Assembly (NCBI GenBank): GCA_024743195.1
Contig: JANSXE010000017.1
Span: 1-64,000 of the forward strand
DNA from: Alphaproteobacteria bacterium
GTDB lineage: Bacteria; Pseudomonadota; Alphaproteobacteria; UBA8366; Aestuariispiraceae
DNA length: 64,000 nt
Direction: 5' to 3'
Shown: positions 48,119 to 63,575 of the stretch, piece after piece
Numbering within the stretch: position 1 is the first letter of the stretch
Layout: every line of letters starts with the position of its first letter
Notes under the pieces: generated by a model
Database searches by the model: none
Told to the model about the DNA's origin: nothing
Seen by the model: only the letters and a program-made list of their open reading frames with translations
Position numbers and translations under genes: made by a program

Positions 48119-49294
48119 ATGAGCATTCCCAACCGCTATCCCACCCTGAATTTCGACCTGGGCGAGACCGCCGACATGCTGCGCGACAGCGTCCAGAGTT
48201 TCGCCGCCGACGAGATCGCGCCGCGCGCCGAGGAGATCGACCGCACCGACCAGTTCCCGATGGATCTGTGGAAGAAGATGGGCGATCTGGGCCTGCTCGG
48301 CGTCACGGTCGAGGAGGAGTATGGCGGCTCGGGCCTCGGCTATCTCGAGCATATCGTGGCGATGGAGGAGATCAGCCGCGCCTCCGCCTCGGTGGGGCTG
48401 AGCTACGGCGCGCACTCCAACCTCTGCGTCAACCAGATCCGGCGCAACGGGTCGCAGGCCCAGAAGAGCAAGTACCTGCCCAAGCTGATCTCGGGCGAGC
48501 ATGTCGGCGCGCTCGCCATGTCGGAGCCGGGGGCGGGATCCGATGTGGTCTCGATGAAGCTGAGGGCGGAGAAGAAGGGCGACCGCTACGTCCTCAACGG
48601 CTCCAAGATGTGGATCACCAACGGGCCGGACGCGGATGTCCTCGTCGTCTACGCCAAGACCGATCCGGAGGCGGGACCGCGCGGCATCACCGCCTTCCTG
48701 ATCGAGAAGGACTTCAAGGGCTTCTCGGTCGCGCAGAAGCTGGACAAGCTCGGCATGCGCGGCAGCCACACCGGGGAGTTGGTGTTCGAGGACTGCGAGG
48801 TCCCGGAGGAGAACGTGCTGGGCGCGCTCGGCCGCGGCGTCAATGTGCTGATGAGCGGGCTCGATTACGAGCGCGCCGTGCTTTCCGGCGGGCCGACCGG
48901 CATCATGCAGGCCTGCATGGACGTGGTCGTCCCCTACATCCACGAACGCAAGCAGTTCGGCCAGGCGATCGGCGAGTTCCAGCTCATGCAGGGCAAGATC
49001 GCCGACATGTACACCATCATGAACGCCGCCAAGGCCTATGTGTATGCGGTCGGCAAGAGTTGCGACCGCGGCGAGACGACCCGCAAGGACGCCGCCGGCG
49101 CGATCCTCTATTCGGCCGAGAAGGCGACCTGGATGGCGCTGGAGGCGATCCAGATCCTGGGCGGCAACGGCTACATCAACGAGTATCCGACGGGCCGGCT
49201 GCTGCGCGACGCCAAGCTCTACGAGATCGGCGCCGGCACCAGCGAGATCCGCCGCATGCTGATCGGCCGCGAGCTGTTCAAGGAAACCGCCTGA
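48119..49294 (+). CDS. liuA: Isovaleryl-CoA dehydrogenase
   Basis: This FAD flavoprotein oxidises isovaleryl-CoA to 3-methylcrotonyl-CoA. The 391-residue product has acyl-CoA dehydrogenase blocks ([39 protein letters not shown]). Its putative catalytic base is Glu251 in [16 protein letters not shown], the position specific to isovaleryl-CoA dehydrogenases. The usual C-terminal site reads [11 protein letters not shown], without the standard glutamate. That distinguishes it from the second dehydrogenase at 51.7 kb. Upstream is a small hairpin (GGCGTC/GACGCC, 48080-48100). Confidence 0.93.
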
Positions 49295-50536: not shown

Positions 50537-51199
50537 ATGCCCACCCTCTTCGTCACCGGCGCGAACCGCGGCCTCGGCCGGGAGATCGCGCGGCGGTACG
50601 CGGCCGACGGCTGGCGGGTGATCGCGGCCTGCCGCGACCCCGCCTCGGCCGGGCTCGACTGCGAGACGCAGGCGCTCGACGTCGCCGACGCGGCCAGCGT
50701 CGAGGCGCTGGCCGGGAGGCTCGACGGGACGCCGATCGACCTGCTGTGGAACAACGCTGGGATCTATCCGGACAAGGGCCGGACGCTCGACGACATCGAT
50801 TACGGCGCGTGGCTGGAGGCGATGCATGTCAACGCGCTGGCTCCGATCCGCCTGGCCTGGGCGCTGAAGGGGAATGTGGCGGCGTCGGAAGGCAAGTTGA
50901 TGGCCTTCACCAGCAGCCAGATGGGCTCGATTGCGCGCGAGTCCGCCGGGGCCTACGCCTATCGCTCCTCCAAGGCGGCGCTCAACATGGCCGCGACGCG
51001 GCTCAAGATCGACGTCGCGCCGCTGGGGATCGCGGTCTGTCTGCTGCATCCCGGCTGGGTGCGCACGGACATGGGCGGCGCGGAGGCCGACATCGACGTC
51101 GAGACCAGCGTCGCCGGCATGAAGCGGGTGCTGGACGGGTTCGAGGCCGCCGAGAGCGGCGCGTTCGTGGACTATCGGGGCGATCCGCTCGCTTGGTGA
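50537..51199 (+). CDS. Short-chain dehydrogenase/reductase
   Basis: The 220-residue product is a canonical SDR: cofactor motif TGANRGLGREIARRY at residues 7-21, NNAG near residue 74, catalytic serine in FTSSQMGSIA and the YxxxK pair in YAYRSSKAALN (near 139-143). It resembles the C-factor/sniffer-like group. The substrate is unknown. It sits between the thiolase and the DUF3291 gene on the same strand, within the liu locus. Confidence 0.87.
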   Translation: MPTLFVTGANRGLGREIARRYAADGWRVIAACRDPASAGLDCETQALDVADAASVEALAGRLDGTPIDLLWNNAGIYPDKGRTLDDIDYGAWLEAMHVNALAPIRLAWALKGNVAASEGKLMAFTSSQMGSIARESAGAYAYRSSKAALNMAATRLKIDVAPLGIAVCLLHPGWVRTDMGGAEADIDVETSVAGMKRVLDGFEAAESGAFVDYRGDPLAW

Positions 51200-51228
51200 G
51201 CGGGCCCCCGCACAGGGAGGCGAAGGCG

Positions 51229-51732
51229 ATGACGTGGCATGTGGCGCAGGTGAATGTGGCGCGGGCGCTGGACGATCTGGACAGCCCGCAGCTTGCGGAG
51301 TTCATGAACAATCTCGACCGCATCAACGCGCTGGCCGAGGCGAGCCCGGGTTTCGTCTGGCGCCTGCAGAGCGACGCCGGCAACGCCACCGACATTCAGG
51401 TGGGCGACGATGCGCGCTTCATCGTCAATCTCTCGGTCTGGGAGACGCCGGAGGCGCTGTTCGATTTCGTCTACCGCACCGCGCACACCAAGATCATGGC
51501 GCAGCGCCGTCAGTGGTTCGAAAAACCGGGCCTCGCGCATCAGGTGCTCTGGTGGGTTCCCGCCGGCCGTGAGCCGACGGTCGACGAGGCGCTCGCCAAG
51601 CTCGCCGTCCTCGACCGGTTGGGGCCCAGCCCGGCCGCCTTCACCTTCAAGCAGCGCTATCCGGCCCCCGACCAGCCGGCCGCCGCGCCCGACGACATGA
51701 AACCGGACCCGCACTGCGTCGGCTGGGCCTGA
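51229..51732 (+). CDS. DUF3291 family protein
   Basis: The 167-residue product starts at an ATG with AGGGAGG 8 bases upstream. [29 protein letters not shown] and [20 protein letters not shown] are the recognisable frame of DUF3291, a dimeric alpha/beta-barrel family related to heme-degrading-type monooxygenase folds. No function is established. It ends 16 bases before the second acyl-CoA dehydrogenase. Confidence 0.83.
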
Positions 51733-51748
51733 TGGGAGCACGCACACG

Positions 51749-52885
51749 ATGATCCTCACCGAAGAACAGACGATGATCCGCGACATGGCGCGCCAGTTCG
51801 CGGCCGAGCAGCTTGCGCCCCACGCCGCCGACTGGGACCGTGAGAGCCGCTTCCCGAAGGAGGCGATCCGGCAGATGGGCGCCCTCGGCCTGATGGGGAT
51901 CCAGGTGCCGGCCGAGTGGGACGGCGCCGGGGCGGACAGCGTCTCCTCCGCGCTGGCGGTGGAGGAGATCGCCGCCGGCGACGCCAGCACCTCCACCATC
52001 ATGGCGGTGCACAACTCCGTCGGCTGTATGCCGATCCTGAAATTCGGGACCGAGGCGCAGAAGGAGCGCTTCCTGCGCCCACTCGCCAAGGGCGAGGCGC
52101 TCGGCTGCTTCTGCCTGACGGAGCCGCATGCGGGCTCCGACGCGTCCGCAATCCGCACCCGCGCGGTGAAGGACGGCAACAAGTGGCGGCTCCGGGGCAC
52201 GAAGCAGTTCATCACCTCCGGCTCTACCGCCGACGTGGCGATCGTCTTCGCGGTCACCGATCCGGACGCCGGCAAGAAGGGGATCAGCGCCTTCGTCGTC
52301 CCGACCGAGACCGAGGGCTACACCGTCGCCAGCATCGAGAGGAAGCTGGGTCAGAAGGCCTCCGACACCTGCCAGATCGTCTTCGACGACGTCGAGCTGA
52401 CGCCCGACCTGATGCTGGGCGATGAGGGGCAGGGCTATCGCATCGCACTCAGCAATCTGGAAGGCGGGCGCATCGGCATCGCCGCCCAGGCCATCGGCAT
52501 GGCGCAGGCGGCGCTCGACCACGCCGTGGCCTACGCCAAGGAGCGCACCAGCATGGGCCAGCCGATCGCGGAGCATCAGGCGGTCGGCTTCCGGCTGGCG
52601 GAAATGGCGACCAAGATCGAGGCCGCGCGCCAGATGACGCTGCACGCGGCCATCCTGCGCGACGCGGGCGTCCCCTGCTTGAAGGAGGCCTCGATGGCGA
52701 AGCTCTACGCCTCCGAGATGGCGGAGCAGGTGGTCTCCGACGCGATCCAGACGCTCGGCGGCTACGGCTACGTCAACGACTATCCGGTCGAGCGGATCTA
52801 TCGCGACGTCCGGGTCTGCAAGATCTACGAAGGCACGAGCGACATCCAGAAACTCGTCATTGCCCGCCAGCTTCTGGCGGCGTAA
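51749..52885 (+). CDS. Acyl-CoA dehydrogenase (short/branched-chain type)
   Basis: The 378-residue FAD enzyme has the standard blocks [40 protein letters not shown] and the C-terminal catalytic glutamate in [19 protein letters not shown] (near residue 366). This is the usual position, unlike liuA. It resembles isobutyryl/2-methylbutyryl- or short-chain enzymes; sequence alone cannot settle the substrate. It lies 44 bases upstream of the halohydrin dehalogenase-like gene. Confidence 0.9.
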
Positions 52886-52928
52886 GCCCAAGCCCATCGG
52901 GGCGATACGGGAATAGGGAGGCGCCGCC

Positions 52929-53669
52929 ATGGCCGCGCTCGCCGGAAAGAACGTGCTGCTGACCGCGCTTGAGGAGTTCGTCGGCCGGCCGGTCGCCGCC
53001 GCGCTCGCCGCCGAGGGCGCGCGCGTGCTGGCGAGCGACGAGAGCTTCGACGACGTGGCCGCCCGCGACGCCTTCGAGGCGGAGAACGAGAATTTCCTCG
53101 CGGCCGAGAGCCTGGATCCGGACGACCTCGCCGACGAGGCGCTGGAGTTGCTGGACGGCCGGGTCGACATCCTGGTCAGCAACGACGGCTTCCCGGCGAT
53201 CCGCGCGCCGGTGGATCAGGCCGATCCACAGGACATGCGCGACGGGCTGGAGGCGCTGGTGGTGCGCCCCTTCGCGCTGGCCGGCGCGCTGGTCCCCGCG
53301 ATGCGCGAGGCGGGCGGCGGGCGGCTCCTGTTCGTCACCTCGGCCGCGCCGCTGATCGGGCTCGCGAACTACTCCATGTACGCGACCGCGCGCGGCGCGC
53401 AGAACGCGATGGTGAAGAGCCTCGCCCGCGAGCTTGCCCGCGATCAGATCCTGGTCAACGCCATCGCCCCCAACTTCGTGGAAAGCCCGACCTACTTCCC
53501 GGAGGACCTGCTGGCCGACGCCGCGTCGCGCGACAAGATCCTGAAAAACATCCCGCTCGGTCGGCTCGGCAAGCCGGAGGAGGTGGCGCAACTGGTCGCC
53601 TTCCTCGCCTCCGAGCGCTGCGGCTTCATGACCGGCTGCGTTCTGCCGATCGCCGGAGGCTGGGCGTGA
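52929..53669 (+). CDS. Halohydrin dehalogenase-like SDR (Ser-Tyr-Arg triad)
   Basis: The 246-residue product has the SDR fold but not SDR chemistry. Where SDRs carry TGxxxGxG it reads VLLTALEEFVGRPVA, matching the T-x4-F-x-G nucleophile-site motif (Thr12, Phe17, Gly19) that defines halohydrin dehalogenases. The catalytic residues are Ser138, Tyr151 and Arg155 (S-x12-Y-x3-R), with Arg replacing the SDR lysine. It also shares DESF, VDILVSND, ALVVRPFALAGAL and NAIAPNFVESPTYFPEDLL with HheC-type enzymes. Such enzymes convert vicinal haloalcohols to epoxides without cofactor, and reverse this with anions. GGGAGG precedes the ATG. The physiological substrate is unknown. Confidence 0.82.
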   Translation: MAALAGKNVLLTALEEFVGRPVAAALAAEGARVLASDESFDDVAARDAFEAENENFLAAESLDPDDLADEALELLDGRVDILVSNDGFPAIRAPVDQADPQDMRDGLEALVVRPFALAGALVPAMREAGGGRLLFVTSAAPLIGLANYSMYATARGAQNAMVKSLARELARDQILVNAIAPNFVESPTYFPEDLLADAASRDKILKNIPLGRLGKPEEVAQLVAFLASERCGFMTGCVLPIAGGWA

Positions 53670-53726
53670 GCGCGCGGTTGGCGTCGCTTTCTGCACAGCG
53701 GGTCCGTGAGCGGCTCGCTCCGAGGG

Positions 53727-53774
53727 CTCGTCCTGAGGAGCGGCCGGCAGGCGCCGCCCTCGTCCTTCGAGACG
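53727..53774. repeat. Intergenic palindromic repeat, partial copy 2
   Basis: CTCGTCCTGAGGAG (53727-53740) and CCTCGTCCTTCGAGACG (53758-53774) repeat, with one base change, the two characteristic modules of the element at 34699-34813, separated by a GC-rich spacer. It fills the gap between the dehalogenase-like gene and the DsbA-fold gene. Confidence 0.75.
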
Positions 53775-53850
53775 GCGCGTACGCGCTTCCTCGGGATCCG
53801 GGCTCGGAGCCGCAGGGCCAGGGCGCCTGGGCGTCGGCGGAGGCCGCTTC

Positions 53851-54444
53851 ATGACCACCCCCATCACCTTCTATTACGAGTTCGCCTCGCCCTACGCCTA
53901 TCTGGCCTCCGAGCGGATCGAGGCGATCGCCGAGAGACACGGGCGGGCGATCGTCTGGAAACCGTTCCTGCTGGGGATCGTCTTCAAGAGCACCGGCGCC
54001 GGCCCGCTGACGCAGATCCCCCTCAAAGGGAACTACGCCGCGCGGGACCTGCCGCGCGCCGCCCGCCGGCATGGGATTCCCTTCACCATGCCGCCGCGCT
54101 TTCCCTTCCTGTCGGTCAATGCGGCGCGGCTGGTCTATTGGGCGGGCGAACGGCGCGCGCCGGACCTCACGCACGCCTTCTTCCGAGCGTCGTTCCGCGA
54201 CGGGCTGAGCCTGCACGAGACCGGCGTGACGCTGGATGTTGCGGCCGGCGCCGGGCTCGACCGAGCCGCCGCGGAGGCGGCGATCAGGGACCCGGCCGTC
54301 AAAGCGCGGTTATCGGAGGAGACCGACGCGGCGATCGAGGCTGGCGTCTGCGGCTCCCCCTTCTTTCTGGTGGATGGCGAGCCCTTCTGGGGGAGCGACC
54401 GGCTGGACGAAATCGACCAGTGGCTCGCGAGCGGCGGATGGTAG
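53851..54444 (+). CDS. DsbA-fold 2-hydroxychromene-2-carboxylate isomerase family protein
   Basis: The 197-residue product has a thioredoxin-like core with helical insert: ITFYYEFASPYAYLASERIE at the N terminus, where the serine replaces the thiol cysteine (kappa-class GST type), and the C-terminal GVCGSPFFLVDGEPFWGSDRL. Characterised members are glutathione-dependent isomerases of aromatic catabolism, but many homologues act elsewhere. Its stop overlaps the start of the glycosyltransferase by 7 bases. Confidence 0.85.
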   Translation: MTTPITFYYEFASPYAYLASERIEAIAERHGRAIVWKPFLLGIVFKSTGAGPLTQIPLKGNYAARDLPRAARRHGIPFTMPPRFPFLSVNAARLVYWAGERRAPDLTHAFFRASFRDGLSLHETGVTLDVAAGAGLDRAAAEAAIRDPAVKARLSEETDAAIEAGVCGSPFFLVDGEPFWGSDRLDEIDQWLASGGW

Positions 54445-55409
54445 AGCGCGCGCTGCAGGAGAAGCCGGGCGTCAGCTTCGTGGTTCCGGTCTATAACAAG
54501 GCCCCCTGGCTGGAGGATGTGCTGGGGCGCATCCGCGCGCAGCGCGGGGCGTTCGAGCGGCAGGTCGTCCTCGTCGACGACGGCTCCACCGACGGATCGC
54601 TGGAGATCGTTCGGCGCGTCACGGCGGACTGGCCCGAGGTCGTGATCGAGAGCCAGCCGAACGCCGGCTCGGCGGCCGCGACCAACCGCGGGATCGCGCT
54701 GGCGGAACGGGAATTCGTCAAATTCGTCGACGCCGACGATCTGTTGCACGAGGACGCGACGCAGGCGCTGCTGGACGCGCTCGCCGCCCACCCGGACGCC
54801 TGTCTCGCCTTCGGTCGGGCGGTGCGCTTTTCGGACCGGGCCGCGCTCGACCTTTCGGCGCCGATCGAGGCCCCGCCGATGGAGCGCATGGAGCGCCCGC
54901 TGAAAGCCTCGATGGCGAACTCGCTGTTCAACCCGACGCAGTTCATGGCGCGGCGCAAGGCCCTGGTCGCGGTCGGCGGGTGCGACGAGCGGATCGTCTT
55001 CAGTCAGGAATACGCGCTGACCATGCGGCTGGCCCGGCGCTGGCCTTTCGTGAAGATCGCGGCCGACATCGCCTTTCTGCCGGACGAGGCGGCGGGTCGG
55101 CTCAGCAACAATGAAGGACGGCAGTTGCAGCGGGTGACGCGCTCGCTCGCCTATTTCCTGCGCGACTATCCCGAGACGCCCTGGGCGCTGAAGCAATGGG
55201 TCTGCAAGCGCATGGCCTACCGCGCCTGGAAATACCTGCACCGGACCGAACGGCCGCTGTGGCTGACCCATCCGATCTTCTGGCGTCAGGCGCGCTGCTG
55301 GCTGCCGATCCTTGGCGGCCACGCCGCATTCATCGAGGACTGCGGACGCGTTTTCGAAAGCGCCGACGTCCGCGTCGCCGACGGCGCCGTGGGGGAGGCG
55401 ACGCGATGA
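54438..55409 (+). CDS. Family 2 glycosyltransferase
   Basis: The 323-residue product has a GT-A nucleotide-sugar domain: VSFVVPVYNKAPWLEDVLGR, VLVDDGSTDGSLEIV, SQPNAGSAAATNRGIALAE and the metal-binding DAD in FVKFVDADDLLHEDA (near residue 95). The C-terminal half (about 200-323) is helical with WALKQWVCKRMAYRAWKYL; no clear membrane helix is present. The start overlaps the previous gene. It precedes an asparagine synthetase, a combination typical of polysaccharide or modified-sugar loci, here inserted in the liu cluster. Confidence 0.85.
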   Translation: MVERALQEKPGVSFVVPVYNKAPWLEDVLGRIRAQRGAFERQVVLVDDGSTDGSLEIVRRVTADWPEVVIESQPNAGSAAATNRGIALAEREFVKFVDADDLLHEDATQALLDALAAHPDACLAFGRAVRFSDRAALDLSAPIEAPPMERMERPLKASMANSLFNPTQFMARRKALVAVGGCDERIVFSQEYALTMRLARRWPFVKIAADIAFLPDEAAGRLSNNEGRQLQRVTRSLAYFLRDYPETPWALKQWVCKRMAYRAWKYLHRTERPLWLTHPIFWRQARCWLPILGGHAAFIEDCGRVFESADVRVADGAVGEATR

Positions 55410-55609
55410 GCGCGGTCTGCAATCGCCTCGCCCGCCGCCGCTGGTTCTACGCCGACCTGGGACGGCCCGCGCTGTCGTCCGCGCGGCGCACCGGGTCGGC
55501 CCGAAGGGCGCGAACGACGATCCGCATCGGCGCCGACAGCGACCGTGGCTGCGTGTCTTGGATTTCCGTCCTCCGGGACGAATGCGCCCGGCGGGCGGGG
55601 CGGGGATAG
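55406..55609 (+). CDS. Possible small protein between glycosyltransferase and AsnB
   Basis: A 67-codon frame starts at an ATGA overlap with the glycosyltransferase stop and ends just before asnB. The residues are Arg-rich (MSAVCNRLARRRWFYADLGR...) and look like translated GC-rich spacer. Coupling is the only argument for it; I recognise no family. Confidence 0.25.
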   Translation: MSAVCNRLARRRWFYADLGRPALSSARRTGSARRARTTIRIGADSDRGCVSWISVLRDECARRAGRG

Positions 55610-55614
55610 CGCCC

Positions 55615-57522
55615 ATGTGCGGGATCGCCGGGTTCCTGGATCTGTCGCGCGGGCGCTCGCGCGAACGGCTGGAGGCCGAGGCCATCGCCATGGCCGACCG
55701 CCTGACCCACCGCGGCCCCGACGATTCAGGCGTCCTGGCCCTGCCTGAGGCCGGGCTTGCCTTGGGCTTCCGGCGCCTCGCGATCCAGGATGTGAGCCGT
55801 GACGGCGCCCAACCGATGGCGAGCGCCGACGGCCGCTACAGCATCGTCTTCAACGGCGAAATCTACAATTTCCAGGACCTGCGCCGCCGTCTCGAGGATG
55901 AGGGCGTCGGGGGCTGGCGCGGCCGGTCGGATACGGAGGTGCTGTTGGCCGCGGTGTCGCGCTGGGGTCTCGACCGCGCGCTCGAGGAATTCGACGGCAT
56001 GTTCGCCTTCGCGCTTTGGGACGCTGAGGCGCGCACGCTCACGCTCGCCCGCGACCGGATGGGTGAAAAACCGCTCTATTGCGGGTGGCGGGGGCCCGTC
56101 TTCCTGTTCGGCAGCGAATTGAAGGCGCTCGCCGCCCATTCGGATTTCACGCCGGAGATCGAGCCCGAGGCCGTGGCCTGCTTCATGCGCTACGGCTACA
56201 TCGCCGCGCCGCTGTCGATCTATCGCGACATCGTGAAGCTTCCGCCGGGCGGCCTCCTGACCGTCTCCGCCGAGGGGCCGGCCGGCGCGGAGGAGCGCGC
56301 CGTCTTCTGGGACGCCGTCGCGGAGGCCGAGGGCGCCGCGCCCTTCGAAGGCGACGAGCGCGCGGCGGTCGACCGCCTGGAGCAACTCCTGAGCCGCTCC
56401 GTCGCACGGCGCATGGTGGCGGACGTGCCGCTCGGCGCCTTTCTGTCCGGCGGGGTCGACAGCTCGGCCGTGACCGCGCTGATGCAGGAGGTGTCGGATC
56501 GGCCGGTGCGCAGCTTCTCCATCGGCTTCCGCGATCCCCGCTTCGACGAAGCGCCCTACGCCAAGGCCGTGGCCGAGCATCTGGGGACCGAGCATACCGA
56601 GCTCTATGTCGATCCGCACGCGGCCCTCAAGCTCGTGCCCAAGCTGCCGGAGGTCTATGACGAGCCGTTTGCGGACGTCAGCGCGCTGCCGACCATGATG
56701 CTCTGCGCGCTTACCCGCAACCACGTGACCACCGCCCTCAGCGGCGACGGCGGGGACGAGCTGTTCTGCGGCTATCCGCGCTATCGAAAAACCGTCGACC
56801 GGTTCCGCGGGACGTCTCCGATCTCGCCCAACATGCTGAAGATTACGCCCTTCGGGGCGTTGAACCTGATCTCCAGCGGCTTCGGCAAGCCGGGCCGGCT
56901 CGGCGACAAGCTCTGGCGGCGGATGAGCGACCGCGCCGCGCCCTCCTTGGAGCGGCTCTATGAAGGGGAGATGAGCCGTTGGCGCATCTGGGACCGGCCG
57001 GCCGCCGATCCGAGAACCGGATTTTTCGCGCCCGGCGCCCGACGCGCGCGGCTGGACGACGATCTGCAGCGGCTGATGGTCGCCGACGCCGTGACCTATC
57101 TGCCCGACGATCTGTTGGTGAAGATCGACCGGGCCAGCATGGCGGCCTCGCTGGAGGCGCGCGCCCCGCTCTTGAGCCCCGACGTCGTGCGCTTCGCCTG
57201 GGGGCTGCCGAGCGCGTTCAAACTGAAGGACGGCCTGTCGAAGTGGGTGCTGCGCCAGGCGCTCTATCGGCGGGTTCCGCAGCGCCTGATCGACCGGCCG
57301 AAAGCGGGCTTCGAGCCGCCGCTGGGCGACTGGCTGCGCGGGCCCTTGCGGGACTGGGCGCAGGCGCTGATCAGCTCCGACCGGCTGGCGGCCGACGGCC
57401 TGATTGATCCGGAGCCGGTGCGCGCCGTCTGGGAGGAGCATTTGAAGGGCCAGCGCAACTGGCGTTTCGAGCTGTGGACCGTGCTGATGCTGCAGAGCTG
57501 GCGCGAGGCCTGGGCCGTCTGA
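55615..57522 (+). CDS. asnB: Glutamine-hydrolysing asparagine synthetase
   Basis: The 635-residue product has an N-terminal class II glutaminase domain, with the nucleophile Cys2 in MCGIAGFLDLS, RLTHRGPDDSGV and FNGEIYNFQDL. It is followed by the synthetase domain with PP-loop FLSGGVDSSAVTALMQE (near residue 280) and SFSIGFRDPRFDEAPYAKAV. It should convert aspartate, ATP and glutamine to asparagine. In polysaccharide loci this type often amidates sugar acids, which the adjoining glycosyltransferase makes possible. It interrupts the liu genes. Confidence 0.93.
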   Translation: MCGIAGFLDLSRGRSRERLEAEAIAMADRLTHRGPDDSGVLALPEAGLALGFRRLAIQDVSRDGAQPMASADGRYSIVFNGEIYNFQDLRRRLEDEGVGGWRGRSDTEVLLAAVSRWGLDRALEEFDGMFAFALWDAEARTLTLARDRMGEKPLYCGWRGPVFLFGSELKALAAHSDFTPEIEPEAVACFMRYGYIAAPLSIYRDIVKLPPGGLLTVSAEGPAGAEERAVFWDAVAEAEGAAPFEGDERAAVDRLEQLLSRSVARRMVADVPLGAFLSGGVDSSAVTALMQEVSDRPVRSFSIGFRDPRFDEAPYAKAVAEHLGTEHTELYVDPHAALKLVPKLPEVYDEPFADVSALPTMMLCALTRNHVTTALSGDGGDELFCGYPRYRKTVDRFRGTSPISPNMLKITPFGALNLISSGFGKPGRLGDKLWRRMSDRAAPSLERLYEGEMSRWRIWDRPAADPRTGFFAPGARRARLDDDLQRLMVADAVTYLPDDLLVKIDRASMAASLEARAPLLSPDVVRFAWGLPSAFKLKDGLSKWVLRQALYRRVPQRLIDRPKAGFEPPLGDWLRGPLRDWAQALISSDRLAADGLIDPEPVRAVWEEHLKGQRNWRFELWTVLMLQSWREAWAV

Positions 57523-57556: not shown

Positions 57557-59164
57557 ATGAGCACGCTGAAGAGCCAATACGACCCCCGCGGCGAAGAGGC
57601 CGCCGCCAACCGTGCGGCCATGGAGGCGCTGGTCGCCGACCTGGCGCAGACGGTGCGCGGCGTGAAACAGGGCGGCGGCGAGCGCGCCCGCAAGAAGCAT
57701 GTCGGCCGCGGCAAGCTCTTGCCCCGCGACCGGGTGCGCACGCTGCTCGACCCCGGTTCGCCCTTCCTGGAACTCAACCAACTCGCCGCCCTGGGCGTCT
57801 ATGAAGACGACATTCCGTCTGCCGGGATCATCACCGGCGTCGGGCGGGTCAGCGGCGTCGAATGCGTGATCGTCGCCAACGACGCCACCGTGAAAGGCGG
57901 CACCTATTATCCGCTGACGGTGAAGAAGCACCTGCGCGCGCAGGAGGTGGCGGAGCAGAACAACCTGCCCTGCCTCTACCTGGTCGACAGCGGCGGCGCC
58001 AACCTGCCCAACCAGGACGAGGTCTTCCCCGACCGGGACCATTTCGGCCGCATCTTCTTCAATCAGGCCAACATGTCGGCGAAGGGGATACCGCAGATCG
58101 CGGTCGTGATGGGTTCCTGCACCGCGGGCGGCGCCTACGTGCCGGCCATGTCGGACGAAAGCGTGATCGTGCGCAAACAGGGCACGATCTTCCTCGGCGG
58201 CCCGCCGCTGGTGAAGGCCGCGACGGGCGAGGAGGTCTCGGCCGAGGATCTCGGCGGCGCCGACGTCCATAGCCGCACGTCGGGCGTCACCGACCATTAC
58301 GCGATGGACGACTATCACGCGCTCTCGATCGCGCGGCGGCTGGTCGGCAATCTGAACCGGCGCAAGCAGCCGTCCGTCGCGCTGCGCGACCCGCGCGACC
58401 CGCTCTACGACCCGGACGAGCTGTACGGCGTCGTGCCGACCGATCTGAAGAAGCCCTACGACGTGCGCGAGGTGATCGCGCGTCTGGTCGACGGCTCGGA
58501 GTTCGACGAGTTCAAGCAGCTCTACGGGACCTCGCTGGTCTGCGGTTTCGCCCATCTGTGGGGCTATCCGGTGGGGATCGTCGCGAACAACGGCATTCTG
58601 TTCTCCGAATCCGCGCTCAAGGGCGCGCATTTCGTCGAGCTCTGCTCGCAGCGCGGAATTCCGCTGATCTTCCTGCAGAACATCACCGGCTTCATGGTCG
58701 GCTCGAAGTACGAGCAGGGCGGCATCGCCAAGGACGGCGCCAAGCTCGTGACCGCGGTCGCCACCACCAACGTGCCGAAATTCACCGTCATCCTGGGCGG
58801 CAGCTTCGGGGCCGGGAATTACGGCATGTGCGGCCGGGGCTACAGCCCCCGCTTCCTGTGGATGTGGCCGAACGCGCGCATCTCCGTGATGGGGGGCGAG
58901 CAGGCGGCGAACGTGCTCGCCACCGTGCGCGAGGACGGCATGGCGGCGAAGGGCGAGAGCTGGAGCGCCGAGGAGAAGGAGGCCTTCATGGCCCCGATCC
59001 GCGACCAGTACGAGGCGCAGGGTCATCCCTATTACGCCAGCGCGCGGCTGTGGGACGACGGGGTGATCGACCCGAAAGACACCCGCATGGTCCTGGGCTT
59101 GAGCCTCTCGGCCGCCATGAACCGCGAGATCGAGCCGACGCGCTTCGGCGTGTTTCGGATGTGA
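57557..59164 (+). CDS. liuB: Methylcrotonyl-CoA carboxylase, carboxyltransferase (beta) subunit
   Basis: This subunit carboxylates 3-methylcrotonyl-CoA to 3-methylglutaconyl-CoA, the third step of leucine breakdown. The 535-residue product has [60 protein letters not shown] and [20 protein letters not shown], the segments that separate MccB from PccB. GATGCGAGAAAGCG lies upstream. It resumes the pathway after the glycosyltransferase-asnB insertion and pairs with liuD. Confidence 0.95.
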
Positions 59165-59260: not shown

Positions 59261-60049
59261 ATGACCGAAAACCGCAAGTACCGCGTCATCCAGGACGGGC
59301 CCGTGGCGCGCGTCCGGCTGACCAATCCGGACCGGCACAACGCCTTCGACGACGAATTGATCAAGGGTCTGACCGGCGCCTTCCTGCTGCTGGGGGCGGC
59401 CGAGCATGTGCGCGTCGTGGTGCTGGAGAGCGAGGGCGCGAGCTTCTCCGCCGGCGCCGACCTGAACTGGATGAAGCGCATGGCCGGCTACGATCAGGCC
59501 GAGAACAAGGCGGACGCGATGGCGCTCGCCAAGCTTCTGAACGTGATGAATTTCCTGCCGAAGCCGACGATCGCGCTCGTCCAGGGCGCGGCCTATGGCG
59601 GCGGGGTGGGACTCGTCTCCTGCTGCGATATCGCCGTTGCGACGACGCGCGCCGGCTTCTCGCTCTCGGAAGTGAAGCTCGGGCTGATCCCCGCGGTGAT
59701 CAGCCCCTATGTCGTCGCCGCCATGGGTCAGCGCGCGGCCCGGCGCTATTTCCAGACGGCGGAGCGCTTCTCGGCCGAAGAGGCGCTGCGTCTCGGCCTC
59801 GTGCATGAGACGGTGGAGGACGAGACGGCGCTGGCCGTCGCGGGCGATCGGCTGGTCGAGCAGATTCTGACGGTGGGGCCGACGGCCGCGGCCGAGGCGA
59901 AGGATCTCGTGTTCGCGGTGGACAGGCCGCTCAGCGAAGCGCTGATCGAGGATACGGCCGAGCGCATCGCGCGCGTGCGCGCCTCCGACGAGGGCAAGGA
60001 GGGCGTCTCCGCCTTCCTGGAGAAGAGGAAACCGGCATGGCTGAGCTGA
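59261..60049 (+). CDS. liuC: Enoyl-CoA hydratase (methylglutaconyl-CoA hydratase)
   Basis: The 262-residue crotonase-fold protein should hydrate 3-methylglutaconyl-CoA to HMG-CoA. It has NPDRHNAFDDELI, the oxyanion-hole loop SEGASFSAGADLNWMKRMAG near residue 65, GAAYGGGVGLVSCCDIAVAT, and FSLSEVKLGLIPAVISPYVV. Context between liuB and liuD supports the assignment more than sequence alone. GGAGGCATGAAGCA precedes the ATG. Its end overlaps the next gene by 13 bases. Confidence 0.92.
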   Translation: MTENRKYRVIQDGPVARVRLTNPDRHNAFDDELIKGLTGAFLLLGAAEHVRVVVLESEGASFSAGADLNWMKRMAGYDQAENKADAMALAKLLNVMNFLPKPTIALVQGAAYGGGVGLVSCCDIAVATTRAGFSLSEVKLGLIPAVISPYVVAAMGQRAARRYFQTAERFSAEEALRLGLVHETVEDETALAVAGDRLVEQILTVGPTAAAEAKDLVFAVDRPLSEALIEDTAERIARVRASDEGKEGVSAFLEKRKPAWLS

Positions 60050-60648
60050 GCTGGGAGACGATCCGGCAGTATTATCCCGACGGCGCGGAGGGGACGGACC
60101 ACACCTTCCTGGAGCGCGCCGTCTTCACCCACGGCCTGCCCAGCCTGTTTTACGGCAGCCTGCGGGACGAGCGCGTCTTCGAACGGGTCGCGGGCCGGCC
60201 GCTCGCGGCCTGCCGCACCGAGCGGGTGACCGTCGTCGACCACAAGCTGGGCCGCATCATGACGGCGGCCGGCTATCCCGGCATCTTCCCCGAGCCGGGC
60301 GGGCGGCTCGAATGCCTTCTGGTCCACGACCTGGCGCCGCTCGAGAGCGCCCGCATCGCCTGGTACGAATGGGACGAATATCGATTGGAGCATTTCCCGC
60401 TGTCCGACGGGCGCACGGCCGAAGCCTTCGTGCCCGATGTCGAGCGCATCCGCCGCGCCTTCGGCGCGGTCGATTTCGAGCCCTGGTCCTTCGAGAACTG
60501 GCGCGCCGTTCACTACGACCACGCGCTGACCGATCTCGCCGCCTGGATGGCGCTGATGCCGGCCGTGCCGCACGACGATCCGCGGCTTCTCGAAGACGAC
60601 GGGCAAGACCATTCATCCGCACGGGAGGCGCGCCGTCATGTTCGCTAA
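60037..60648 (+). CDS. Gamma-glutamylcyclotransferase-like (AIG2/GGCT) protein
   Basis: The 203-residue product has the AIG2/GGCT barrel start LPSLFYGSLRDERVFERVAG (YGSLR motif), HKLGRIMTAAGYPGIFPEPG and the acidic LVHDLAPLESARIAWYEWDE, where the glutamate is placed as the catalytic acid. GGCT-fold enzymes cleave gamma-glutamyl bonds to 5-oxoproline. It overlaps liuC by 13 bases and liuD by 11, so it is built into the liu operon. Its role there is not evident. Confidence 0.8.
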   Translation: MAELSWETIRQYYPDGAEGTDHTFLERAVFTHGLPSLFYGSLRDERVFERVAGRPLAACRTERVTVVDHKLGRIMTAAGYPGIFPEPGGRLECLLVHDLAPLESARIAWYEWDEYRLEHFPLSDGRTAEAFVPDVERIRRAFGAVDFEPWSFENWRAVHYDHALTDLAAWMALMPAVPHDDPRLLEDDGQDHSSAREARRHVR

Positions 60649-62668
60649 GATCCTGATCGCCAACCGGGGCGAGATCGCCTGCCGCGTCATCCGCACCGCG
60701 CGCCGCATGGGCATTGCGACCGTGGCCGTCTATTCCGACGCGGATGCGGCCGCCCAGCATGTGAAGCAGGCCGACGAGGCCGTCCGGCTCGGTCCGGCGC
60801 CGGCGCGGGAGAGCTATCTGCTGGTCGAGAAGATCCTGGAGGCCTGTCGGGCCACGGGGGCCGAGGCGGTGCATCCGGGCTACGGCTTCCTGTCCGAGAA
60901 TGCAGGCTTCGCCGACGCGCTGGAGGCGGCCGGGATCGCCTTCATCGGCCCGCCGGCGGACGCGATCCGCGCCATGGGCTCGAAGTCCCAGGCCAAGGCG
61001 CTGATGGACAAGGCGGGCGTCCCCCTCGTCCCGGGCTATCACGGCGACGAGCAGGACCCGGATTTCCTGGCCGCGCGGGCGGAGGAGATCGGCTATCCGC
61101 TCCTCATCAAGGCGGCGGCCGGCGGCGGCGGCAAGGGCATGCGGCTGGTCGAGCGTGCGGCCGATTTCGCCGACGCGCTCGCGTCGTGCAAGCGCGAGGC
61201 GGCGGCCAGCTTCGGCGACGACCATGTGCTGGTCGAGCGCTTCGTCACCCGGCCGCGCCATATCGAGATGCAGGTCTTCGCCGATTCGCACGGCAAGGCG
61301 GTGCATCTCTTCGAGCGCGACTGCTCGGTCCAGCGCCGCCATCAGAAGGTGATCGAAGAGGCGCCCGCCCCCTTCATGCCGGAGACGCTGCGCGCCGAGA
61401 TGGGCAAGGCCGCCGTCGACGCGGCCCAGGCCATCGGCTATCGCGGCGCCGGCACGGTGGAGTTCATCGCCGAGACGGCGGAAGACGGTGCGCCCGCCGC
61501 CTTCTTCTTCATGGAGATGAACACCCGCCTGCAGGTGGAGCATCCGGTGACCGAGGCGGTGACCGGGCAGGATCTGGTCGAATGGCAGATCCGCGTCGCG
61601 GCCGGCGAACCCTTGCCGCGCGCGCAGGAGGATCTCGGCTTGTGCGGGCACGCGCTTGAGGCGCGGCTCTACGCCGAGGACGCCGAGAACGGCTTCCTGC
61701 CCGCCATCGGGCGGCTCGATCGACTGCGCATGCCGGAAGGGGCGGCCGGCCTCAGGATCGATTCCGGCGTGGTGGAGGGCGACGCGGTCACCGTCCACTA
61801 TGATCCGATGATCGCGAAGGTGATCGCGCACGGCGCCGACCGGACGGAGGCGCTGGCCCGCCTCGCGCGCGGGCTGGAGCAGGTCGAGGCGGTCGGCGTC
61901 GTCACCAACCGGGATTTCCTGATCCGCCTCGCCCGACACCCGGCCTTTCGGGCGGCCGCCCTCGACACCGGCTTCATCGAGAAGCACGGGGCGGATCTGA
62001 TCCCGCCCGCCGGCCGTGCGGCGCCCGATCGGGTGTTGGCGCTGGCGGCCCTGGGCGAGGTCATGGGCCGGGCCGAGGCGGCGCAGGCGAAGGCGGCGGG
62101 AAGCGGCGACCCCCATTCCCCCTTCGCGCTCTCGACCGGCTGGCGCCTCAACGATTGGAGCTTCAACGATCTCTATTACGACGCCGGCGCCGGCGAGGTG
62201 ACGGTGCGCTGCCGCTATCTGGCCGGCGGCGGCTACGGCCTCGACCTGCCGGGTGGGTCGGTCGAGGCGCGGGCCGAGCGCCTCGCCGACGGCCGGCTCG
62301 CCGTCGATTTCGACGGGGCCAAGACGCGCGTGGCCGTCGCGGTGGGCGCGGAGGCCGTCACCGTCGTCGACGGCGCCGAGACCTGGCGCATCCAGCGCAT
62401 CGACCGGCTGGCCGCCGCGGGAATGGAGGAGGCGGACTCCGGCGCGCTCGTCGCCCCGATGCCGGGCAAGGTGACCGCCGTTCATGTGGCGGCCGGCGAC
62501 GCCGTCGCGGCCGGCCAGGCGCTGCTCGTTCTCGAGGCGATGAAGATGGAGCACACCGTGCGCGCGCCCAAGGACGGAACCGTCGCCGAAGTCCGCTTTG
62601 CCGACGGGGAGCAGGTGGGCGAGGGCGCGACCCTGATCACCTTCGAGGAGGAGAGAGCCGATGCCTGA
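60638..62668 (+). CDS. liuD: Methylcrotonyl-CoA carboxylase, biotin-carrying (alpha) subunit
   Basis: The 676-residue product carries biotin carboxylase ([23 protein letters not shown]-grasp loop [36 protein letters not shown]), a BT region (about 500-590), and a C-terminal biotinyl domain with the lysine in [14 protein letters not shown] near residue 636. It pairs with liuB. It is a paralogue of pccA in the same window, sharing most conserved blocks. Its start overlaps the GGCT-like gene; its end overlaps liuE by 8 bases. Confidence 0.95.
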
Positions 62669-63575
62669 GCCGACGGGACCCGGCCGCATTCGCCTCGTCG
62701 AGGTCGGCCCGCGCGACGGGCTGCAGAACGAGGCGGCGGAGGTGTCGACCGACACCAAGGTCGCGCTGATCGAGAAACTGGCCGAGGCCGGCTGTTCGGC
62801 GGTCGAGGCGGGCGCCTTCGTCTCGCCCAAATGGGTGCCGCAGATGGCCGATTCGGCCGCGGTCCTCGCCCGGATCGTCAAGCGTCCGGGCGTCGCCTAT
62901 CCGGTGCTGACGCCCAATATGAAAGGCTTCGACGCGGCGCTGGCGGCCGGCGCGGAGGAGGTGGCGATCTTCGGCGCGGCGTCCGAGAGTTTTTCCCAGC
63001 GCAACATCAACTGCTCGATCGCCGAATCGCTGAACCGTTTTCGGCCCGTGGCGGAGGCTGCGGCCGCGCGCGGCGTCCGGGTTCGCGGCTATATCTCCTG
63101 CGTGCTCGGCTGCCCCTATGAAGGGGCGATCGCGCCGGAGGCGGTGCGCGAGGTCGCCGCCGCGCTGCTTGAGATGGGCTGTTACGAGATCTCGCTCGGC
63201 GACACGATCGGCGTCGGCGCCCCGCGCGAAACCGCCCGCCTGATCGACGCGGTCGCCGGCGCCGTCCCGACGGACAGGCTCGCCGGCCATTTCCACGACA
63301 CCTACGGCCAGGCCTTGGCGAACATCTGGGCGGCCTGGGGGAAGGGCGTGGCCGTGTTCGACGCCTCCGTCGCCGGGCTCGGCGGCTGCCCCTACGCCAA
63401 GGGGGCGAGCGGCAACGTCGCGAGCGAGGACGTGGTTTACAGTTTCGCGCGCTCGGGCGTGGAGACCGGCGTCGATCTCGATCTCCTGCTCGCCGCCTCG
63501 CGCTTCATTTCCGAGGCGCTGGGGCGCAAGCCCGTCAGCCGCGTCGCCAACGCGCTCGCCGCCGCGGACGTCTGA
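62661..63575 (+). CDS. liuE: Hydroxymethylglutaryl-CoA lyase
   Basis: This enzyme cleaves HMG-CoA to acetoacetate and acetyl-CoA, ending the leucine pathway. The 304-residue TIM-barrel product has [20 protein letters not shown] at the N terminus, [16 protein letters not shown], the metal-binding [17 protein letters not shown], and the catalytic cysteine loop [32 protein letters not shown] precedes the ATG within liuD. It is the last recognisable liu gene. Confidence 0.95.

Follow-up and report, generated by a model that had tools for sequence, protein, structure and literature searches.

The window, by which we mean the whole stretch of 64,000 nucleotides analysed here, contains an open reading frame that, judged from its sequence and a predicted structure, most likely encodes a true halohydrin dehalogenase (HHDH). 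The frame lies in a leucine locus (Table 1), and the first-pass annotation was correct in placing it among genes of acyl-CoA catabolism: the gene for an acyl-CoA dehydrogenase (ACAD2) stops 43 bases before it, and downstream lie genes for carboxylase subunits, a protein of the enoyl-CoA hydratase family and a hydroxymethylglutaryl-CoA (HMG-CoA) lyase. Since the HHDH gene is on the same strand as ACAD2 and separated from it by a short gap, the two are probably co-transcribed.

Table 1. Features of the leucine locus and of the HHDH gene within the window.
Feature	Position	Strand	Basis or remark
Isovaleryl-CoA dehydrogenase (ACAD1)	48119..49294	+	Top five matches among solved structures are of this enzyme
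Ordinary SDR of the leucine locus	50537..51199	+	Homology and locus comparison
DUF3291 domain	51244-51654		Pfam; in frame 50746-51732, between SDR and ACAD2
Short-chain-type acyl-CoA dehydrogenase (ACAD2)	51749..52885	+	Ends 43 bases 5' of HHDH
Ribosome-binding-like GGGAGG	52916..52921	+	By eye; 7 bases 5' of the HHDH ATG
Predicted HHDH gene, probable A/C branch, 246 aa	52929..53669	+	ORF from ATG, solved-structure search, profile, tree, model
Motif 1, T12-x4-F17-x-G19, where SDRs have the glycine-rich NAD(P) motif	52962..52985	+	Translation, published motif
Motif 2, S138-x12-Y151-x3-R155 (catalytic triad)	53340..53393	+	Translation, published motif
P181-N182-F183 ... Y189-F190 loop	53469..53498	+	Aligned with PNY loop of HheC; conservation
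Family-2 glycosyltransferase and asparagine-synthase-type amidotransferase	53706-57522		Between HHDH and carboxylase genes, inside the leucine locus
Carboxyl transferase subunit, of methylcrotonyl-CoA carboxylase by setting	57557..59164	+	
Enoyl-CoA hydratase family protein	59261..60049	+	
Biotin carboxylase subunit with methylcrotonyl-CoA carboxylase BT domain	60638..62668	+	
Hydroxymethylglutaryl-CoA lyase	62661..63575	+	Above its cut-off

Translation of the frame confirmed the residues on which the earlier reading had been built: the glycine-rich motif of SDRs is absent, T12, F17, G19, S138, Y151 and R155 are all present, and so are the strings DESF and VDILVSND. The likeness claimed to HheC in the spacing of the triad was also found, as the aligned HheC chain 5kwe has the same S-x12-Y-x3-R arrangement together with DESF and VDVLVSND. 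The two motifs had been taken jointly to separate HHDHs from SDRs, and they are given as such discriminators in PMC11976700 and in PMC4989007 (section 5). Among seven SDR control rows (including one identical pair, and with three rows taken from the window's own genome), motif 2 occurred in none and motif 1 in one, by chance. The genome itself yielded 23 matches at E <= 1e-10 including the HHDH, and all the others had at most 35% identity. The loop of residues 181 to 190 aligns with the PNY-type loop of HheC, which we take to have a part in halide binding; SDRs have PG at the position of the PN.

In a search against solved structures, the best 12 of 400 matches comprised 8xxb and 11 chains whose name or title reads HHDH, halohydrin epoxidase or dehalogenase (for 7b73, the title); 8xxb is named only SDR yet groups with HheD2 in the tree. 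The best match was 6a41 (E 1.2e-64, 45% identity), and HheA, HheC and HheD2 were also recovered; the first ordinary SDR, FabG, followed at E 3.1e-27, which is 37 orders of magnitude weaker than the best match. A seven-row profile search returned the identical 12 chains at E <= 1e-40, that is, only HHDHs and 8xxb. In a tree of 70 rows, with six SDR rows as outgroup and subtypes E, F and G left out, the HHDHs including the query formed one clade outside the SDR rows (support 100/99). Within it, the HheB/HheD types were separated from the rest (100/99), and the query fell in the remaining 58-row branch together with HheA2, HheC and 6a41. This branch has weak support (94/72), and the long branches of HheA2 and HheC are insecurely placed; the query is probably an HHDH of the A/C branch. 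It stands beside a relative from Marivibrio halodurans (78-79% identity).

The same data bear on whether the gene could encode an NAD(P)-dependent SDR in which the motif changes are coincidental. The family databases would allow this, because Pfam (adh_short_C2 and adh_short) and NCBIfam (best 25 of 205 families, all below their own cut-offs) give SDR-like names only, and the fold is common to SDRs. However, the presence of both HHDH motifs, the difference of 37 orders of magnitude in E-value, the 100/99 clade and the retention of Asn182 in 116 of 119 relatives, at a position where SDRs carry Gly, all speak against it, and we consider an SDR very improbable. An HHDH-type enzyme is thus supported by motifs, solved-structure and profile searches, tree and fold, and by analogy with known members the protein is very probably cofactor-free. 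Literature searches found no paper on the query protein, so the label "undescribed" stands to that extent; but the protein is by no means isolated, as it has many relatives, one of which, at 45% identity, already has a solved structure. It is a new member of an already known enzyme family.

The AlphaFold2 monomer model (53-row alignment) was of high confidence (mean pLDDT 96.2, pTM 0.93). Foldseek placed HHDHs at ranks 1-16, with 6a41 first (TM 0.95), and the first SDR at rank 17. By VIA-align, Z was 36.0 for 6a41 and between 33.8 and 32.0 for the other listed HHDHs, the lowest of which tie with the first SDR (Z 32.0); HheD2 was absent among the best 50 matches. This tie indicates that the fold is common to both groups and that function is not proven by fold alone. 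The structure prediction that had been proposed as a check gave a confident SDR-like model nearest to 6a41 and the HHDHs, but not a separation of HHDH from SDR.

Conservation was assessed in 119 distinct relatives, which remained of 142 extracted proteins after removal of repeats and of those below 110 bits. Ser138 was kept in all 119, Arg155 in 116 and Tyr151 in 116, the last figure being partly built in, because the set was selected for likeness to the query and 80 of its loci had been fetched with patterns that cover residues 85-93 and 144-152 (the same holds for N85, D86 and R92). The motif 1 column was reached by 116 relatives, all of which have Gly19 and 113 of which have an aromatic residue at position 17. 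The ratio dN/dS (NG86) was 0.26 (0.161/0.615) between the query and its Marivibrio relative, and 0.06 (0.046/0.794) between two other members of the family, G012 and L069; the gene is under purifying selection. A recently acquired copy, non-functional or fading, might be suspected from the patchy presence in the window's own family (6 of 14 genomes at E <= 1e-35), but these two ratios, the complete triad and the open frame leave this reading with very little probability.

Several relatives depart from the canonical residues. Three genomes of one family carry tandem HHDH-like pairs (L151, 5647-7137, forward strand; L152, 5360-6837, and L153, 4780-6249, both reverse strand), in which one copy keeps S-Y-R, while in its partner Gln replaces Arg and motif 1 lacks an aromatic residue; by sequence, the pairs look as though a catalytic subunit had been joined with a degenerate one. 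In a sub-clade with support 97/85 (L154, 4917-5693, reverse; L156, 4702-5445, forward; L157, 4589-5326, reverse), Ser and Arg are kept and Pro or Ala is aligned at the position of the catalytic Tyr. In motif 1, six relatives have Trp for Phe/Tyr (L018, L020, L023, L068, L070 and L078) and another six have Ser for Thr (L028, L042, L059, L064, L104 and L111); the published motif would pass over both kinds. Natural variation at the Thr position is also noted in PMC11976700, which mentions two recent variants.

Relatives of the query are widespread in the class, not rare. At least 43 of 385 sampled genomes had one at E <= 1e-35, a count that may be low since at most seven candidates per genome were scored. 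Within the order, 10 of 43 genomes had a match at the same threshold, three of these being short B/D-like proteins, and in one other family of the class 27 of 40 genomes had a match at E <= 1e-30. In G005, the sixth genome of the window's own family with an HHDH, the gene belongs to another lineage, and other families of the class have shorter HHDH-like proteins that fall in the B/D branch (L015, L016, L017 and L158).

The leucine locus was compared with ten other genomes, L069 and G010 being treated as one because they agree in protein start and identity and their contigs differ by less than 100 bases in length. The order ACAD2-HHDH with a gap of 5 to 43 bases was found in five genomes (the window, Marivibrio, Pacificispira, G012 and L069), where the locus also holds the isovaleryl-CoA dehydrogenase, the SDR, the carboxylase subunits and the enoyl-CoA hydratase; HMG-CoA lyase lies within the locus stretch of the window, Marivibrio and Pacificispira. 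The HHDHs of these five, together with that of L051, a Kiloniellales bin with the gene in another setting, form a clade (97/85). HHDH is missing from the six other compared genomes, all of which have ACAD2 (70-78% identity) as well as genes for the carboxylase, the hydratase and the lyase; isovaleryl-CoA dehydrogenase is in the stretch of five of them and absent from that of G004. Across the family, ACAD2 is present at >=70% identity in 12 of 14 genomes, 7 of which have no HHDH match, so that HHDH is an optional part of the leucine locus.

Outside this setting the neighbours were varied. Seven of 80 loci matched ACAD2 by tblastn, three of the seven being the leucine locus; at L122 an acyl-CoA dehydrogenase-like gene directly upstream of the HHDH was found by Pfam. 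With 24 first-look acyl-CoA dehydrogenase candidates in the 4.17 Mb of the window's genome, about as many such neighbours could turn up by chance in stretches of at most 20 kb (a rough estimate). A Pfam scan covered 86 neighbouring ORFs from 47 loci, out of 167 ORFs listed for 50 loci picked from the 80. Among the best 25 of 103 families, alpha-amylase, phosphofructokinase and SDR occurred in 3 of 86 each and acyl-CoA dehydrogenase in 2 of 86; ORFs were called by a simple codon score, and since this failed to pick up the glycosyltransferase frame and one thioesterase frame in the window, individual neighbours may be wrong. The tight same-strand neighbours in other lineages (20 ORFs) included a sulfatase, the acyl-CoA dehydrogenase-like protein of L122, RadC (2), COQ9, dihydroxy-acid dehydratase, hydantoinase B, phosphofructokinase (2), an AMP-binding enzyme, regulators and others, and two without assignment. 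Where neighbours recurred, they were confined to a lineage (phosphofructokinase beside the 6a41 relatives; a set in Sneathiella), and no fixed partner gene across the HHDH relatives was found in the neighbourhoods compared. The suggestion that the leucine locus hints at the natural role has thus lost most of its force, as the arrangement belongs to five genomes of one family, most of whose ACAD2-bearing members lack HHDH. A role in leucine breakdown is therefore not read from the locus, HHDH being optional there and the neighbours differing in other lineages.

These comparisons also weigh on a broader alternative, in which an enzyme of the HHDH fold natively acts on an epoxide or halohydrin of acyl-CoA metabolism that is anionic or bound to CoA, is functionally linked to the acyl-CoA dehydrogenase and could hold a carboxylate or phosphate with R92. 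The order and spacing with ACAD2 in the five genomes and the upstream gene in L122 would fit this, as would residue 92 (codon 53202-53204), which is basic in most of the 119 relatives (Arg in 88, Lys in 18), a conservation partly owed to the search pattern used for the loci, and which aligns with a Phe in HheC, presumably Phe86. A basic residue at this position is a possible substrate contact. However, the seven ACAD2-bearing family genomes without HHDH and the 2 of 86 neighbours with acyl-CoA dehydrogenase domains elsewhere do not favour a functional link, and HheA2 also has Arg there, so that R92 is not special to the query group; we hold this alternative to be unlikely. Unlikely, too, is its extension to a large alphaproteobacterial HHDH family whose native work is not the dehalogenation of pollutants: its enzymes would turn over an epoxide or halohydrin of acyl metabolism that is anionic and is recognised by the mostly basic residue 92, and in the window's family the acyl-CoA dehydrogenase would be their physiological partner.

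The explanation we prefer, and to which we assign a high probability as a whole, is an HHDH, probably of the A/C branch, that needs no cofactor and whose likeliest role is stand-alone. In the mechanism described for HHDHs (PMC4989007, section 4), the hydroxyl is positioned by Ser and deprotonated by Tyr, which Arg activates, and the halide exits into a pocket that replaces the cofactor site. By the same scheme, Ser138 would hold the hydroxyl of a vicinal haloalcohol and Tyr151, with its pKa lowered by Arg155, would accept the proton; the alkoxide would then displace the halide to give an epoxide, and the halide would depart into a pocket that motif 1 lines and that takes the place of the NAD(P) site of SDRs. 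The reverse reaction would be epoxide opening with halide, cyanide, azide or nitrite, and no cofactor would be used in either direction. Because no fixed gene partner was found across the family, a stand-alone role, for example in handling natural bromo- or chlorohydrins or epoxides, would be likelier than a step of leucine breakdown. Against this explanation counts that the genome has no match to an EHN-type epoxide hydrolase (the EHN family being the one searched) that could take the epoxide on. The same genome encodes a type-II haloacid dehalogenase above its cut-off (L193, G000:C20:145349-145933), which is also found in 2 of 14 control genomes and is a possible halogen link.

Synthetic chemistry makes use of HHDHs, and the alphaproteobacterial family offers many new enzymes to try. 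The natural substrates of HHDHs are largely unknown, as PMC11976700 states for HheC. The main interest lies in how common HHDHs are in the class and in the absence of a fixed partner gene in the comparisons: with relatives in at least 43 of 385 genomes and the triad kept, HHDH chemistry seems to be common outside enriched pollutant degraders.

Compared with known systems, the query is closest to 6a41, a solved protein titled "dehalogenation enzyme". The two share both motifs, length and tree branch, and superpose well (TM 0.95, Z 36.0), but they are only 45-46% identical, and the genes beside the nearest 6a41 relatives differ from those of the query; 6a41 shares 95% identity with the L038 protein, and no paper naming 6a41 was found in the literature search. 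HheA/HheA2 (4z9f, 1zmo) resemble the query in motifs, in length, in lacking a C-terminal extension and in having Arg opposite R92, at 36-37% identity in structure alignments. HheC of Agrobacterium radiobacter (1pwx and variants; 33-36% identity in structure alignments) agrees with it in motifs, triad spacing, DESF, VD-LVSND and the PN loop. In contrast to the query, HheC has a C-terminal extension (PMC4989007), and its operon includes an epoxide hydrolase gene (PMC11976700), whereas the gene studied here is preceded by that of an acyl-CoA dehydrogenase. HheB/HheD2 (4zd6, 7b73) have the HHDH motifs in common with the query, but are shorter, with about 220-230 residues in the structures, and form a clade of their own (100/99).
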